From positions 1-64,000 of the forward strand of contig WQWN01000004.1 in assembly GCA_009785325.1 (NCBI GenBank): a stretch of 64,000 nucleotides of DNA. The letters are read 5' to 3'. Under the pieces are notes generated by a model. The model had not been told where the DNA came from, did no database searches, and saw only the letters and a list, made by a program, of their open reading frames with translations. Position 1 is the first letter of the stretch; each line of letters starts with the position of its first letter. The stretch is from Candidatus Saccharimonadota bacterium. Lineage in GTDB: Bacteria > Patescibacteriota > Saccharimonadia > Saccharimonadales > Saccharimonadaceae. The translations under genes were made by a program, and so were the position numbers. This document shows, piece after piece, positions 14,454 to 60,836 of this stretch.

Positions 14454-15992
14454 ATGACAAAAACTATTGAATATCGTATCGAAATCGGCAAACTAATCAG
14501 CAAAGCTCGCACAGACAAAGGCCTCACTCAGACAGAGCTCGCCGAAAAACTCGGTACTTCTCAGTCTGCCATTAATCGCATCGAAAAAGGCAAACAAAAC
14601 ATCTCTCTCGACATGGTCGGTCGCATCAGCGACGTCCTCAACTCCAATATTTTGTCTGTCAACACCGATGGCTCACTCAATTTTCGCATCAACGGCGGCA
14701 AAGAACTTTCAGGCACGATAGAAGTCAACACTAGTAAAAACGCCGCGGTAGGCCTCCTCTGCGCCAGCCTCCTTAACTCCGGCAAAACTACCCTAAAGCA
14801 CCTCGCACGTATCGAAGAAGTCTTCCGCATCATCGAAGTCCTCAACTCCATCGGCGTCAAAACTCGCTGGATCAACAACGGCAAAGATCTCGAAATTATA
14901 CCTCCACGTGAATTAAACCTCAAGTCTCTCGACCTCGAGGCTGCTCGTCGCACTCGTTCCGTCATCATGCTCATGGGACCACTCCTCCACATATTCGACA
15001 ACTTCCGCCTTCCTTACGCAGGTGGCTGTAACCTCGGCGAACGCACCGTCGAGCCTCACTTAAAAGCCCTTGAGCCTTTCGGTCTCCACGTCGACTCCAA
15101 ATCCACCAGCGGCTTCTATAAAGCCACTGTTAAAACCATCGATAACACCGACAAAACTATCACCCTCATCGAGCGCGGCGACACCGTCACCGAAAACGCC
15201 CTCATGGCCGCCGCCCGCTTCCCAGGCCGCACTATCATCCGCAACGCCTCCACTAACTACATGGTCCAAGACGTCATGTTCTATCTCGAAAAACTCGGCG
15301 TCAAAATCGAAACAAATGGCACCACTCTCACCGTCCACGGTCAGTCAAAAATCAACAAAACCATCGAATACTCCCCCAGCGAAGACCCTATCGAAGCCAT
15401 GAGTTTCATCGCTGCAGGTATCGTCACTAAATCCGAAATTACAGTCGCACGCGCCCCAATCGAGTTCCTCGCCATCGAACTCGAAACTCTCAAACTCATG
15501 AACCAAAAATTCACCCTCTCCGACGAATATCTCGCCGACAACGACCGTACACGCCTCGTCGACATCACTTTCCATAAATCCGACCTCATCGCCCCACCCG
15601 ACAAAATCCACCCCATGCCATTTCCCGGCCTCAACATCGACTGCCTCCCCTTCTTCGCTGTCATCGCCGCCACCGCAAAAGGCCGCACACTCATCCACGA
15701 CTGGGTCTACGAAAACCGCGCTATCTACCTCACCGAGCTCAGTAAACTCAACGGCAAAGTCACCATGGTCGACGCTCACCGTATCTACATCGAGGGTCCC
15801 ACAAACTGGCGTCCAGCTGATCTCGTCACTCCACCCGCACTCCGTCCCGCCGTCGTCATCCTCCTCGCCATGCTCGCAGCCCCTGGCACTTCCATCCTCC
15901 GCCACATCTACTCTATCAACCGCGGCTACGAAGACTTTGCTAAACGCCTCTCCTCTCTCGGTGCCGATATCGAAACTCTCACAGGTCTCTAG
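14454..15992 (+). CDS. murA: UDP-GlcNAc enolpyruvyl transferase with N-terminal XRE HTH
   Basis: First committed step of peptidoglycan synthesis, transferring enolpyruvate from PEP to UDP-GlcNAc. Residues about 8-68 are a helix-turn-helix of the XRE/Cro type (ISKARTDKGLTQTELAEKLG, then SQSAINRIEKGKQNIS). Residues about 75-512 are MurA: the KNAA motif (SKNAAVGLL), the loop with the nucleophilic cysteine GGCNLGER (fosfomycin-target Cys kept) and LNIDCLPFF for the catalytic Asp. At 512 residues it is about 90 longer than a usual MurA, matching the added domain. No frameshift or start exists between the parts, and the leaderless start fixes the full-length form. The HTH could let the enzyme sense substrate and control transcription, perhaps of its own gene or the divergent sigma4 gene; that is inference. 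Confidence 0.93.
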   Translation: MTKTIEYRIEIGKLISKARTDKGLTQTELAEKLGTSQSAINRIEKGKQNISLDMVGRISDVLNSNILSVNTDGSLNFRINGGKELSGTIEVNTSKNAAVGLLCASLLNSGKTTLKHLARIEEVFRIIEVLNSIGVKTRWINNGKDLEIIPPRELNLKSLDLEAARRTRSVIMLMGPLLHIFDNFRLPYAGGCNLGERTVEPHLKALEPFGLHVDSKSTSGFYKATVKTIDNTDKTITLIERGDTVTENALMAAARFPGRTIIRNASTNYMVQDVMFYLEKLGVKIETNGTTLTVHGQSKINKTIEYSPSEDPIEAMSFIAAGIVTKSEITVARAPIEFLAIELETLKLMNQKFTLSDEYLADNDRTRLVDITFHKSDLIAPPDKIHPMPFPGLNIDCLPFFAVIAATAKGRTLIHDWVYENRAIYLTELSKLNGKVTMVDAHRIYIEGPTNWRPADLVTPPALRPAVVILLAMLAAPGTSILRHIYSINRGYEDFAKRLSSLGADIETLTGL

Positions 15993-18732: not shown

Positions 18733-18806
18733 TGGAGGCGCGTATGGGAATTGCACCCATCTACAAGGTTTTGCAGACCTCTGCGTAACTTCTCCGCCAA
18801 CGCGCC
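18733..18806 (-). tRNA. tRNA-Cys (anticodon GCA), altered elbow
   Basis: 74 bases with encoded CCA. Acceptor, anticodon (loop CTGCAAA) and T stems pair fully. The T loop is TGCAATT, so the near-universal U55 is G, and the D loop reads AGAAGTTA where tRNA-Cys normally has GG at 18-19. The promoter is TGGTAGAAT with the box at 18815-18820 on the minus strand. Confidence 0.9.
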
Positions 18807-18859
18807 GTACCTCCATTCTACCACCAAACCCCCATTCCGCTCAAATTCTATCAACTACC

Positions 18860-18888
18860 TTGCTTTACGTATCACTTTCCCATATAAT
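18860..18888 (+). promoter_or_regulatory. Promoter of the tRNA-Gly/tRNA-Phe pair
   Basis: TTGCTT at 18860-18865, 17 bases, TATAAT at 18883-18888; the first tRNA begins 10 bases later. Confidence 0.75.
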
Positions 18889-18898
18889 TTTACTTGAC

Positions 18899-18974
18899 GC
18901 GGGTGTAGCTCAGTTGTTAGAGCGCTTCCTTGCCATGGAAGAGGCCCAGAGTTAGAGTCTCTGTACCCGCACCA
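18899..18974 (+). tRNA. tRNA-Gly (anticodon GCC), U19-A56 elbow
   Basis: 76 bases with encoded CCA; all stems pair (anticodon stem CTTCC/GGAAG, loop TTGCCAT). The D loop is AGTTGTTA instead of AGTTGGTA and the T loop is TTAGAGT instead of TTCRANT. Together these replace the usual tertiary pair G19-C56 by U19-A56. Confidence 0.9.
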
Positions 18975-18987
18975 TACGTACTTTGTC

Positions 18988-19063
18988 GGCTCTTTAGCTC
19001 AGTTGGTAGAGCAGAGGCCTGAAGAGCCTTGTGTCCCCAGTTCAAGTCTGGGAGGAGCCACCA
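18988..19063 (+). tRNA. tRNA-Phe (anticodon GAA)
   Basis: 76 bases with encoded CCA; anticodon loop CTGAAGA, D loop AGTTGGTA and T loop TTCAAGT are all standard. Co-transcribed with the tRNA-Gly 13 bases upstream. Confidence 0.95.
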
Positions 19064-19105: not shown

Positions 19106-19245
19106 TTGCTCGAACTAAAATACTTAAACTGTTCAGATAATAGTTTTTCTTGTCTTGTTTTTTGTTCTGTGTTAACGTTTAAGATAAGAGTGTAACCAAA
19201 AAATTAAATCATCTGAGTCTGCGAGAGAAAGATCTAGTGTTTCTC

Positions 19246-20850
19246 ATGCGAATTAAATCTCAAATCCTAGTTAAGCTACCATTTATGATTACTATAGTGG
19301 TAATTGTAGGATTATCAATACAGACATCGGTCCTACATCTAGTTAATTCAAGCTATATAGCCACAGCTTTATCTATCCATTCTATTGCCGCTGATCATGG
19401 CTCAACTACTGGTGGAAATACAGTTACTATTACTGGGGATTTTGGAGCTTCGATTGGCCCGCAGATTACAACTAGTGTTCAGCACTCTCTAGCCTTAGAT
19501 AGTAATGGACAGATTTGGGCTTGGGGAGGTAATTATTCTGGACAACTTGGTGACGGTACAAACACTAACAGTAGCACACCTATTACTATAAGTACTTCTG
19601 GTACACTACTAGATATAACCCCTACACGAATAACTGCTGGCACTGGTCGTTCATTCGTATTAGATCACGACGGGAAGATTCATTCATGGGGGTGGAACAT
19701 TGCTGGTGAACTTGGTAATGGCACGTGGGATGATAGTAACGTTCCAGCTGTAGTAGATATGACCGGAGTACTTTATGGTAGGAATATTTTGGAAGTGGCA
19801 GCTGGCTGGCATCATTCTCTAGCCTTAGATAGTGAAGGGAATATATTTGCATGGGGAGCAAACGGAAGGGGTCAACTAGGTAGCGGTACTTTAGGTGGCG
19901 GTAGTAATGTTCCGGTTGCCGTGGATATGACGGGAATGCTTGCTGACAGAAACATTATTCAAGTAGCGGCTGGCAATAATCATTCTCTAGCCCTAGATAG
20001 TGAAGGGAATATATTTGCATGGGGAATCGGTATTAATGGCCAGCTTGGTGATGGAGCAGCTACAGATAGTGGCGTTCCTGTTGTCGTAGATACTTCCGGG
20101 GTGCTTGCTGGTAGAAAAATTATACAGATATCAGCTGGCGGTAGCCATTCTCTAGCTCTAGATAGCGAAGGGAGTATTTTCGCATGGGGAGGTAATTGGG
20201 ATGGGCAGCTTGGTAATGGAACAAATACTACTAGTAATGTTCCAGTTATTGTGGATACTTCCGGAGTGCTTGCTGGTAGAAATATCGTACAAGTAGTAGC
20301 GGCTACTAGCGGCGGTAATCATTCTCTTGCTTTAGATGATAAAGGGAACATATTCGCATGGGGGCATAACGTTAACGGCCAGCTTGGTGATGGTATGGTT
20401 AATGCTTGGGGCTGGCCTTTTCCATACAGTAACACTCCAGTTGCTGTAGATATGACAGGTGTACTTGCTGGTAGTAGTGTTACTCAGATAGCCGCTAGCC
20501 AAAGTCACTCTCTCGCTTTAGACAGTAAAGGTAATGTGTTTTCATGGGGAGGTAATTGGAGTGGACAGCTAGGTAACGGGACAACTACTGGCAGTAACAT
20601 TCCTCTCTTCGTCATGAATCTAGGAGTTCCCACCAACCCCATCCAATCCGTAACTCTAGGTGGTCTCTACTGCACAAACATTCAGATCATTAATCCAAAT
20701 ACAATCACATGTATAGTACCAGCTCATCCAGCAGGAACAGTAGACGTGGTAGTTAATACACTACATGGATCAGCTACTCTATATCAAGGATATACTTATA
20801 TAGATATTCCTGATGTGCCGAATACGGGGCATTTGCGCAAAGAAGATTAG
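19246..20850 (+). CDS. Secreted RCC1-propeller/TIG surface protein (first copy)
   Basis: 534 residues. An N-terminal signal or anchor segment (LVKLPFMITIVVIVGLSIQT) is followed by the first half of an IPT/TIG domain (GGNTVTITGDFG), then seven RCC1 repeats of about 55 residues with HSLALDSEGNIFAWG and GQLGNGT, then the second half of a TIG domain (TITCIVPAHPAGTVDVVV) and a C-terminal VPNTGHLRKED. A GTG at 19237 is in frame, but the paralogue at 59214 aligns from MR, so I use the ATG at 19246; its ribosome binding site is weak (GAGAAAG). Composition is G-rich and T-rich on the + strand (20 G, 12 C in 20041-20100), unlike other + strand genes. The role is unknown; it is probably an exposed binding protein. 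Confidence 0.88.
   Translation: MRIKSQILVKLPFMITIVVIVGLSIQTSVLHLVNSSYIATALSIHSIAADHGSTTGGNTVTITGDFGASIGPQITTSVQHSLALDSNGQIWAWGGNYSGQLGDGTNTNSSTPITISTSGTLLDITPTRITAGTGRSFVLDHDGKIHSWGWNIAGELGNGTWDDSNVPAVVDMTGVLYGRNILEVAAGWHHSLALDSEGNIFAWGANGRGQLGSGTLGGGSNVPVAVDMTGMLADRNIIQVAAGNNHSLALDSEGNIFAWGIGINGQLGDGAATDSGVPVVVDTSGVLAGRKIIQISAGGSHSLALDSEGSIFAWGGNWDGQLGNGTNTTSNVPVIVDTSGVLAGRNIVQVVAATSGGNHSLALDDKGNIFAWGHNVNGQLGDGMVNAWGWPFPYSNTPVAVDMTGVLAGSSVTQIAASQSHSLALDSKGNVFSWGGNWSGQLGNGTTTGSNIPLFVMNLGVPTNPIQSVTLGGLYCTNIQIINPNTITCIVPAHPAGTVDVVVNTLHGSATLYQGYTYIDIPDVPNTGHLRKED
19813..20025 (+). repeat. Near-identical RCC1 repeat units
   Basis: The 45 bases at 19813-19857 recur at 19981-20025 with one difference. 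They encode HSLALDSEGNIFAWG in consecutive blades. Confidence 0.85.
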
Positions 20851-20994: not shown

Positions 20995-21081
20995 TGGTGC
21001 GCAAGAGAGGACTTGAACCTCCACAGCCTTTCGGCCACTACCACCTCAAGGTAGCGTGTATACCAATTTCACCACTTGCGC
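20995..21081 (-). tRNA. tRNA-Leu (anticodon GAG)
   Basis: 87 bases with encoded CCA and a long variable arm (GTGGCCGAAAGGCTG). Anticodon loop TTGAGGT, T loop TTCAAGT. TGGTAGAAT about 30 bases upstream gives a short 5' leader with a GTCGC/GCGAC hairpin. Confidence 0.93.
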
Positions 21082-57813: not shown

Positions 57814-59025
57814 TTAGTACCACCCATGAACCAACCAAAAAGCATGCGCACACGGCCATCCCCGCCCGATCCCACTACACGAGACTCCCCAGAGGAATAT
57901 ACTTCCATCAAAATACCGCGCATTCACATAACTATGCATCGCCCTGAGCGCCGCCACTGGATCATTCCACGGCCCATAATGATCCCATCGTCCACATGGC
58001 AATTGCTGCCCCAGTCCACACGCTCCGCTCGACCGATTCACCGCATTCGGATTCCACGTACTCTCCCGATGCACAATGAAATCCACATACCACCAATACC
58101 TTTCCGGAATCCCACTCGCCACCAGCCAGTCATGTCGCGTCCCTGTCACATTCGACACCCTCGGCCGCGTCCCGATCACCTCTCTCTGAGTCACCGACTC
58201 TCTCACCACCACCGTCTCCACCACTACACGCCCCACCTCCACACCTCCATACATCTCCACCTCAAAAGTCACCATCCTACGTCCAGTCTCACCATAAACC
58301 TCCACTCGCCGATATCCAGCCTCTCGCCCATAATCCCGTATCTGTTCCACTCCGAACTCAATTTCCTCCTCGACCACCACCAGATTCACTCCATCTCGCC
58401 ACACCGCCAGTTCCATCCCCTCATAAATCAACTCATCTAAATCTCTCGACACAAAATCCGCATCAATCTCTCGCTCCGCCAAAAACTCCCCTACCGTCTC
58501 TGCTCGCGTCCTCAATTCCATCTCTGTTCCAAAAAAGTTCAGAGTAATCGCCCTCGACCTCAAAACCACCAATTCCATACTCGTACCCGTTTCCAGAAAA
58601 TCCCCAGTCCGCCTGAGTTCTAGCCCATCCTGTTCCAGCAATTCTACTCCCGCCTCTTCCGCGATCATCTCATTCGTCTGCGCCGCCGTCATCACCCGCA
58701 TCCGACTCATCCCGTCCACCACTACCATCGGTCGCGCCCGAAATATATTCACTCTGAAATCACTCGATATAATCTCCTCACCTAGCCCCGGCTCCACTAG
58801 ATCACCTGCATGAATTTCAATCTCCAAAAGTTCCAAAAGTTCCGCTACCGTTTCCACACTTGTCTGCACCACTCGCCTCTGCCCGCGATCATGAATCGCC
58901 ACCAACTTCACCCCGTCGCCTCGCTCTACACCGTCATCCGCCCGCGTCATCCCTACACTAAACAGTCCCAACATCAAAACCACTCCCAACACCGCTCCAG
59001 CAACTCTAAATAATTTTGTATTCAT
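57814..59025 (-). CDS. YabE/Rpf-like exported wall hydrolase (DUF348-G5-lysozyme-like)
   Basis: 403 residues. A signal or anchor helix (VAGAVLGVVLMLGLFSVGM) is followed by three DUF348-type repeats (about 45-210; VVQTSVETVAELLELL is the first), a G5 domain (about 240-300; VTFEVEMYGGVEVG) and a C-terminal lysozyme-like domain (about 315-403) with IVHRESTWNPNAVN, SSGACGLGQQLPCG and HSYVNARY. It is built like B. subtilis YabE and mycobacterial RpfB. The latter precede ksgA in their genomes, as here. TGATATAAT lies 13 bases before the ATG, giving a very short leader. Confidence 0.9.
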   Translation of the reverse strand: MNTKLFRVAGAVLGVVLMLGLFSVGMTRADDGVERGDGVKLVAIHDRGQRRVVQTSVETVAELLELLEIEIHAGDLVEPGLGEEIISSDFRVNIFRARPMVVVDGMSRMRVMTAAQTNEMIAEEAGVELLEQDGLELRRTGDFLETGTSMELVVLRSRAITLNFFGTEMELRTRAETVGEFLAEREIDADFVSRDLDELIYEGMELAVWRDGVNLVVVEEEIEFGVEQIRDYGREAGYRRVEVYGETGRRMVTFEVEMYGGVEVGRVVVETVVVRESVTQREVIGTRPRVSNVTGTRHDWLVASGIPERYWWYVDFIVHRESTWNPNAVNRSSGACGLGQQLPCGRWDHYGPWNDPVAALRAMHSYVNARYFDGSIFLWGVSCSGIGRGWPCAHAFWLVHGWY

Positions 59026-59084: not shown

Positions 59085-59117
59085 TTGACCCCCCCCCGAA
59101 GAGTGCTAATGTTTAAT
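59085..59117 (+). promoter_or_regulatory. Candidate promoter with C9 run in the spacer
   Basis: TTGACC at 59085-59090 runs into nine consecutive C (59089-59097). TAATGT (59107-59112) lies at 16 bases and TTTAAT (59112-59117) at 21 bases. The run length would set the spacing. This is the only candidate I see for the second RCC1 gene. Confidence 0.4.
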
Positions 59118-59213: not shown

Positions 59214-60836
59214 ATGCGAACAACAAACAAAATATCAACTAGGCTGCCATTCTTTGCTGCAATAGGAGTAATGGCAGTGTTTTCAATACAAGCAGTTATA
59301 TTGAATATGGTAAATCCAATCGAGACCGCTACAGCACTCTCGATCACATCGATTACTCCAAACATTGGATCAATAGACGGTGGAGAATTAGTCACTATTA
59401 CTGGGGACTTTGGGATACCTACTGATGTACCGTTGGATATAGTACAGATGGTAAGTGGAGACTTTCACACACTTATCCTGGATAGTAGTGGTCAGATTTT
59501 TGCTTGGGGAAGTAACGCTTTTGGTCAGCTCGGCAATGGCACCACTACAGCCAGCAACGTTCCAGTTGCAGTAGATATGAGTGGTGTGTTAGCTGGACGA
59601 GACATTATACAAATAGCGGCTGGAAGTAACCACTCTCTCGCTCTAGATAGTGAAGGACGGGTATTCGCGTGGGGAATGAATGTTTGGGGACAGCTCGGTA
59701 ACAGCACTGGCACTACTACAGCCAGTAATACGCCTGTTGCAGTAGATATGAGTGGCGCGCTACATGGAAGGAGTATTGTACAGATAGAGGCTGGCGAAAC
59801 GCATTCTCTCGCTTTGGATAGTGAAGGTCAGATCTTCGCGTGGGGAAATAACTGGGAGTTTCAACTTGGTATTTATCTATCCGACACATATACTACTCCA
59901 GTCGCAGTAGACACGACCGGGGTGTTAGCAGGTAGGACAATTGTACAGATAGTAGCTGGAGACAACCACACACTCGCTCTGGATAGTGAAGGTCAGATCT
60001 TCGCGTGGGGTATGAGTCTCGACGGTCAGATTGGGAGCGGCGAGACAACCAGTATGCTTACTCCAGTCGCAGTAGACACGACCGGGGTGTTAGCAGGTAG
60101 GACAATTGTACAAGTATTAGCTGATGGTAACCTTTCTTTTGCTATAGACGACACAGGAAATATGTTTGCATGGGGGACTAACTGGGCTGGTCAATTTGGT
60201 AATGGTGGCGATTTTCTTAATAGTAACGTCCCAGTAGAAGTAGACATAACTGGGGTTTTAGCCGGAAGAAATATAACACAGATAGCGATTAACGGTACTT
60301 ATGTACTTGCTCTAGATGACGCGGGAAATATGTTTGCATGGGGCGAGAACTGGGCTGGTCAATTTGGTAATGGTACGAATATTGACAGTGGAATTCCAGT
60401 CAAGACTGGAGCGTTAGCGGATAGAGCAATTACACAGATAATAATTGGATTCGGCTTCTCCAGCTCTTTCGCCCTCGACTCCGAAGGCAACCTCTTCGCA
60501 TGGGGAGATAACTCGTCTGGTCAATTCGGCAACGGCACTAATACAAGTAGTTTTGTTCCGGTCCATATTACCAACTTCGGACAAGGTTTAATAGATTCAC
60601 TTGATCTTTCTGTAACTATGGGTGGTAGTCCTTGTACTGATGTAAGAGTAATCAATCTAACCACAATAACTTGTACCACTCCAGCACATCCGGCAGGAGT
60701 AGTGGATGTTACTGTACGTACCCTACACGGATCAGTCACTCTATACCAGTCCTATACATTTGTAGATATACCAGAAGTACCTGATACTGGAGGACCTGGA
60801 GTGCCGAATACGGGGCATTTGAGAGTAGAAAACTAG
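59214..60836 (+). CDS. Secreted RCC1-propeller/TIG surface protein (second copy)
   Basis: 540 residues, same plan as the protein at 19246. Signal or anchor helix (LPFFAAIGVMAVFSIQAVIL), first half of a TIG domain (ITSITPNIGSIDGGE, VTITGDFG), seven RCC1 repeats, second half of the TIG domain (TITCTTPAHPAGVVDVTV) and a tail with VPDTGGPGVPNTGHLRVEN. A GTG frame from 59166 reads through the ribosome binding site; AAGGAGG at 59196-59202 selects the ATG at 59214. The seventh repeat (60461-60540) uses host-like C-ending codons while the others do not. Confidence 0.88.
   Translation: MRTTNKISTRLPFFAAIGVMAVFSIQAVILNMVNPIETATALSITSITPNIGSIDGGELVTITGDFGIPTDVPLDIVQMVSGDFHTLILDSSGQIFAWGSNAFGQLGNGTTTASNVPVAVDMSGVLAGRDIIQIAAGSNHSLALDSEGRVFAWGMNVWGQLGNSTGTTTASNTPVAVDMSGALHGRSIVQIEAGETHSLALDSEGQIFAWGNNWEFQLGIYLSDTYTTPVAVDTTGVLAGRTIVQIVAGDNHTLALDSEGQIFAWGMSLDGQIGSGETTSMLTPVAVDTTGVLAGRTIVQVLADGNLSFAIDDTGNMFAWGTNWAGQFGNGGDFLNSNVPVEVDITGVLAGRNITQIAINGTYVLALDDAGNMFAWGENWAGQFGNGTNIDSGIPVKTGALADRAITQIIIGFGFSSSFALDSEGNLFAWGDNSSGQFGNGTNTSSFVPVHITNFGQGLIDSLDLSVTMGGSPCTDVRVINLTTITCTTPAHPAGVVDVTVRTLHGSVTLYQSYTFVDIPEVPDTGGPGVPNTGHLRVEN
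59895..60112 (+). repeat. 53-base exact direct repeat in the RCC1 gene
   Basis: 59895-59947 and 60060-60112 are identical over 53 bases, 165 bases (55 codons) apart, which is exactly one propeller blade. Confidence 0.9.

Follow-up and report, generated by a model that had tools for sequence, protein, structure and literature searches.

The window, a 64,000-nucleotide stretch comprising positions 1 to 64,000 of contig C4 in a 678-kb genome of seven contigs (76% complete), carries two paralogous genes in which a seven-repeat RCC1 propeller lies within a split TIG domain. Genome size and gene content indicate a lineage with very small genomes, most likely Saccharibacteria within Patescibacteria. 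Gene 1 (19246-20850, + strand) encodes a 534-residue protein that is predicted to be secreted or membrane tethered; its start codon is the ATG at 19246, and a GTG is present at 19237. The N-terminal segment (19246-19368, +) contains a hydrophobic helix at residues 10 to 32, visible in the alignment and helical in the AlphaFold2 model, followed by a conserved Ala before LSI. This Ala possibly marks a signal peptidase I site, where the protein would be cleaved, or the helix may be an uncleaved membrane anchor. The TIG N-half (strands A and B), LSIHSIAADHGSTTGGNTVTITGDF, occupies 19369-19443 (+), and the propeller of about 390 residues occupies 19462-20619 (+), where Pfam recognizes seven RCC1 repeats (PF00415, E value 1e-67). 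The TIG C-half (strands C to G, 20647-20793, +) runs from SVTLGG to YTYI, or SVTLGG...CIVPAHPAGTVDVVVNTLHGSATLYQGYTYI in outline, and matches profile positions 31 to 72 of 84 in PF01833. Models of the two TIG halves, derived from 17 intact TIG domains found in related genomes, score 19 bits on the N-half and 54 bits on the C-half. The tail, PNTGHLRKED, includes a PNTG motif (20818-20829, +) that resembles a sortase signal without a membrane segment.

Gene 2 (59214-60836, +) encodes a 540-residue paralogue with an identical split layout: a TIG N-half at 59337-59411 (+), a propeller of seven Pfam-recognized repeats at 59430-60580 (+), and a TIG C-half at 60609-60761 (+), on which the half-model scores 54 bits. 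In a whole-genome search, its two TIG pieces are complementary within the 84-position PF01833 profile, with positions 2 to 24 matched before the propeller (59340-59408) and positions 17 to 72 matched after it (60561-60728). Its PNTG motif lies at 60804-60815 (+), with a PDTG eight residues earlier. The earlier note had described a TIG domain divided around seven RCC1 repeats in the protein at 19246 and the same division in the one at 59214, and the profile matches bear out both descriptions.

tRNA genes flank gene 1, with Cys, Gly, and Phe tRNAs upstream (18733-19063) and a Leu tRNA downstream (20995-21081). A paralogue on contig C1 is likewise placed after a tRNA gene, and this adjacency may be due to chance. 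Close to gene 1 is a gene for another probable surface protein, which contains a Listeria-Bacteroides repeat domain (PF09479; 16050-17573, - strand). The window also encodes a MurA-like protein (14454-15992, +) whose N-terminal helix-turn-helix domain resembles antitoxins of the HipB type. The divergent neighbor of gene 2 (57814-59025, -) encodes a protein with an aggregation-promoting-factor C-terminal domain.

Predicted structure of the gene 1 protein

We modeled the gene 1 protein with AlphaFold2 from an alignment of four sequences that includes no intact TIG domain, and obtained a mean pLDDT of 79 and a pTM of 0.75. Most ten-residue blocks of the ring score near 90, and blocks in the TIG halves score about 59 to 77, a moderate confidence. 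The seven tandem repeats close into a ring, as in RCC1-like domains (RLDs), and Foldseek matched this ring to UVR8, HERC2, and RCC1. TIG strands are predicted at residues 43-48 and 59-65 before the ring and at residues 466-471, 477-483, 486-490, 499-505, and 508-514 after it. The propeller sits between strands B and C. Its TM-score to UVR8 is 0.93 (normalized to the target), and ring closure suits insertion into a loop, as suggested earlier. Going by the TIG fold, both halves would fold together into one sandwich. An AlphaFold2 model of a Bacteroidia split TIG domain with a Laminin-G-like head reached a pLDDT of 42.

Split TIG domains in related genomes

To survey the architecture, we applied the N-half and C-half models to loci from relatives, some of which had been picked for partial TIG matches. 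Among 201 N-to-C pairs, 131 are intact (gap of at most 45 residues) and 70 are split (195 to 524 residues), with none in between; the 70:131 ratio is not a population frequency, because the loci were partly chosen for partial TIG matches. The halves alternate N-C-N-C in 349 of 361 neighbor pairs, compared to a mean of 214 and a maximum of 241 in 2,000 label shuffles within open reading frames. With the full TIG model (82 positions), N fragments mostly end near position 30 and C fragments begin near positions 30 to 31, in the variable loop that joins strand B to strand C. As controls, we cut the model after strands A, E, and F and obtained three, five, and no separated pairs, respectively. A cut after strand C yields 59, which we read, from the total rather than pair by pair, as mostly the same events captured with a longer N model.

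A search for other proteins with the same split, as proposed in the earlier note, thus returned 70 split domains, which are drawn from 21 genomes: the one studied here, which is the only one sampled from its genus, 15 others of its family, and 5 further genomes. Four of the 21 come from elsewhere in the phylum and represent three further families (L176, L179, L180, and L181), and one is a Bacteroidia genome (contigs L082, L087, L091, and L093) with the same break and another head. Mis-binning of a patescibacterial sequence is made less likely by the type IX secretion sorting domain at the C-terminal end of the Bacteroidia protein on L091. Genomes that carry split TIG domains also carry many intact TIG repeats. 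Searches of viral contigs yielded no relatives, whether the query was the full-length protein or the C-half. An RCC1-repeat query of the same contigs found six loci for RCC1 proteins, phage-like or otherwise, and one of these loci was added to the structure alignment to deepen it.

Unrelated heads occupy the same TIG loop

BLASTP at a cutoff of 1e-4 links the 70 inserts into 11 separate groups. The largest groups are RCC1-type (31 inserts), the FTGTQYINTG type (10), and DUF2341 with Laminin-G (9), followed by other LamG/sialidase-like heads (5), ALK/LTK glycine-rich heads (5), FISUMP (3), and small groups. Recognizable domain families at this one break are RCC1, ALK_LTK_GRD or Gly_rich_2, FISUMP, and Laminin_G_3 with DUF2341. 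Different heads also occur within single proteins: L103 has three consecutive split TIG domains with Gly-rich, FISUMP, and RCC1 heads, and two kinds occur together in L117 and again in L102. Identity between frames that carry unrelated heads still reaches about 60%, for example between the window frame and one from Bacteroidia. TIG would seem to be a general socket into which surface heads can be swapped.

Conserved frames and divergent propellers within one genome

Nine complete proteins in the genome have the RCC1-in-TIG layout, and the alignment shows the split in all nine, which makes it more than a chance arrangement. A tenth gene, L039, is cut by a contig end and encodes the same TIG N-half followed by an ALK/LTK glycine-rich domain (PF12810).

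Across the nine paralogues, amino acid identity is 0.71 in each TIG half versus 0.58 in the blades of the propeller. At four-fold degenerate sites, the values are 0.55 and 0.56 for the two TIG halves and 0.37 for the blades, the latter being close to the saturated value of 0.30. For the pair formed by the gene at 19246 and the paralogue near 36 kb of contig C5, 29 of 33 four-fold sites are identical in the C-half and 52 of 137 in the best-matched blades (Fisher P = 1.5e-7). We considered misaligned blades as the cause of the low synonymous identity and rejected this explanation, as the best partner in any register still gives 0.37. Identities of the N-half and C-half are correlated among the nine paralogues (Mantel r = 0.50, P = 0.003), and they remain so when the propeller is allowed for (partial Mantel r = 0.45, P = 0.006); halves that form one unit would be expected to behave in this way. 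The longest exact DNA stretches shared between paralogues span 70 to 107 bases, and most of them are within a TIG half or directly adjacent to one; a 78-base stretch starts at residue 91, in the first blade. Either the frames have been homogenized by gene conversion or heads have been exchanged between frames, and gene conversion of the frame alone could produce the contrast between frame and head.

Variation within the propellers is concentrated at particular positions. Over 63 blades, the most variable are positions 2 and 3 of the AGxxHS loop and positions 19, 21, and 22 in WGxNxxGQLG. The variable pair of AGxxHS aligns with the WR of the UVR8 GWRHT motif, which lies at the UVR8 dimer interface. 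Such a pattern would be expected of a diversifying binding face, although loop positions vary in many proteins.

A shared promoter-like sequence with poly-C spacers

The pattern TTGAC-N13..18-TGCTAATGTTT occurs seven times in the genome; all seven copies precede a family member and point the same way as its gene, and the reversed control pattern has no match in the genome. An eighth member has this putative promoter with one mismatch, and gene 1 has a degenerate version with three mismatches (19150-19180, +). The spacer to TAATGT measures 16 to 18 bases. Upstream of gene 2, the promoter-like sequence TTGAC-N14-TGCTAATGTTT (59085-59114, +), a pattern found in the genome only upstream of the family, has a run of nine C's within its -35/-10 spacer (59089-59097, +). 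Three copies, those of gene 2 and two paralogues, have eight or nine C's in the spacer; no other C8 run in the genome has TGCTA closely behind it. The C9 run of gene 2 is the single run of at least eight C's or G's in the window, where base composition predicts about ten. The poly-C spacers resemble, and suggest, a phase-variable promoter.

Anchoring and the C-terminal tail

All nine paralogues stop a few residues after PNTGH or PNTGY (20818-20850 and 60804-60836 in the window), and the codons of the PNTG motif, CCGAATACGGG, are identical in most of them. The protein on L104 likewise stops directly after PNTGH or a close variant. None of the nine combines PNTG with a membrane segment and a positively charged tail, the full sortase signal that is present in the relatives on L115 and L117. 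Four sortases are encoded in the genome. The nine proteins may be anchored by the N-terminal helix, or they may be cleaved and released. The membrane-anchored stalk that the earlier note envisaged is not supported for the window proteins: the split TIG domain begins about ten residues past the N-terminal helix (residues 10 to 32), and the chain ends just past the TIG domain with the PNTGH tail and no C-terminal membrane segment. Tandem-TIG stalks are found in relatives.

A proposed socket model for the split TIG domain

We consider it probable that the TIG domain acts as a socket, with the propeller as a surface recognition head. Strands A and B would precede a large globular head held in the B-C loop, and strands C to G would follow it; in the window proteins, this head is a closed RCC1 propeller of seven blades, the two ends of which would be near each other. 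The N-terminal helix would send the protein through the membrane, the TIG halves would fold together as the base, and the propeller would point outward as the recognition surface. A fast-diverging head on a conserved frame would fit surface adhesins or receptors for contact with other cells. The heads would then be exposed at the surface and bind a partner there, and swappable recognition heads for surface contact are the likely function.

This role is suggested by the export-like N terminus together with the variable exposed face, and by the literature on a propeller pilin. Work on the cultured saccharibacterium TM7x shows that early interaction with the host, as well as competition, depends on PilX2, a pilin with an RCC1 propeller (PMC12206443). 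PilX2 of Nanosynbacter lyticus TM7x is described as a minor pilin with its propeller at the C terminus and no TIG frame mentioned (PMC12206443). It is a patescibacterial surface protein in which an N-terminal helix is combined with an RCC1 propeller of seven blades, a combination shared by the window proteins, which are putative surface proteins and have the propeller within a TIG frame. PilX2 has no predicted PilD signal (PMC12206443). In the window proteins, we saw by eye no G-FTLIE-type motif or globular pilin part, and searches of Pfam and NCBIfam gave no pilin match. Contact with a host is plausible by analogy with PilX2.

The same architecture could instead serve a role other than host contact, with heads that bind polysaccharide, DNA, or nutrients for the cell's own use or that form a protective coat. 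We hold this to be doubtful, though well worth weighing: heads in relatives include FISUMP and lectin-like Laminin-G domains, but the single RCC1-propeller surface protein tested in cultured Saccharibacteria acts in host association (PMC12206443).

Closure of the socket is a separate matter. The TIG halves might complete each other between neighboring molecules, by strand or domain swapping, and so build fibers or a surface coat in which the propellers are side decorations. The N-half is short, with two strands of moderate confidence, and nine co-promoted paralogues whose frames are nearly the same would suit one another as partners. We nevertheless find swapping unlikely, since tandem split TIG domains alternate N-C-N-C in one chain, for which closure within the chain is simplest, and since the ring ends are expected to lie close together, so that intrachain closure would cost little. 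It is very improbable that the halves are leftover flanks without a structural role, persisting as linkers after a propeller gene fell into a TIG gene: the moderate model confidence of the halves would allow it, but they are kept in every copy, are more conserved than the propeller, also across head types, and flank the insert at one place in 70 cases with no intermediate gap sizes.

Relation to known domains and broader meaning

Each part of the socket model has known counterparts. The window halves match the corresponding parts of the IPT/TIG profile (PF01833), as do tandem surface proteins with this domain, but PF01833 is one continuous 84-residue domain in Pfam, whereas this family holds 195 to 524 residues in the B-C loop. 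The window propeller shares seven repeats and a closed ring with RCC1, UVR8, and HERC2; it differs in being, presumably, exported and in being inserted in an immunoglobulin-like frame, whereas the solved RCC1-like members compared are eukaryotic and mostly intracellular. A Ran-like role is unlikely because of the export-like N-terminal helix. In the VWA-containing pilus adhesin RrgA, and in integrins, where the beta I domain sits in the hybrid domain, a ligand-binding domain is placed in a beta-sandwich loop and held out as a head. Each of those frames has one kind of head, in contrast to the split TIG domain, which carries at least four recognizable head families, in tandem and across phyla. 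The open-licence literature held nothing on TIG with Saccharibacteria or Patescibacteria, on TIG with insertions, or on RCC1 with TIG, and in these papers we found no earlier description of a TIG domain that serves as a socket and takes many unrelated heads at a single loop.

A broader reading, which we advance as possible and hold tentatively, is that the split TIG domain is a general recombining display socket. Homologous flanking frames would permit in-register swapping or duplication of heads, giving one ultra-small genome a co-promoted head repertoire in which some slippage-prone poly-C promoters could switch members on or off. Diversification of a repertoire by head exchange and phase variation becomes testable in this system.

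The architecture may bear on how Patescibacteria recognize and hold their host cells. The sequence signature of an N-half, a gap of about 200 to 500 residues, and a C-half would allow head repertoires to be listed for proteins in which domain annotation picks up no more than partial TIG matches. For protein engineering, the B-C loop offers a natural, repeatedly used insertion site. One locus among the relatives has an open frame of at least 5,691 residues (L116:2926-19998) that consists largely of alternating intact TIG and RCC1-split TIG domains. In L096, the C terminus that follows tandem split TIG domains has a weak, below-cutoff match to the C-terminal domain of the CPR Pam pilus pilin, and several long relatives end in similar-looking sequence.
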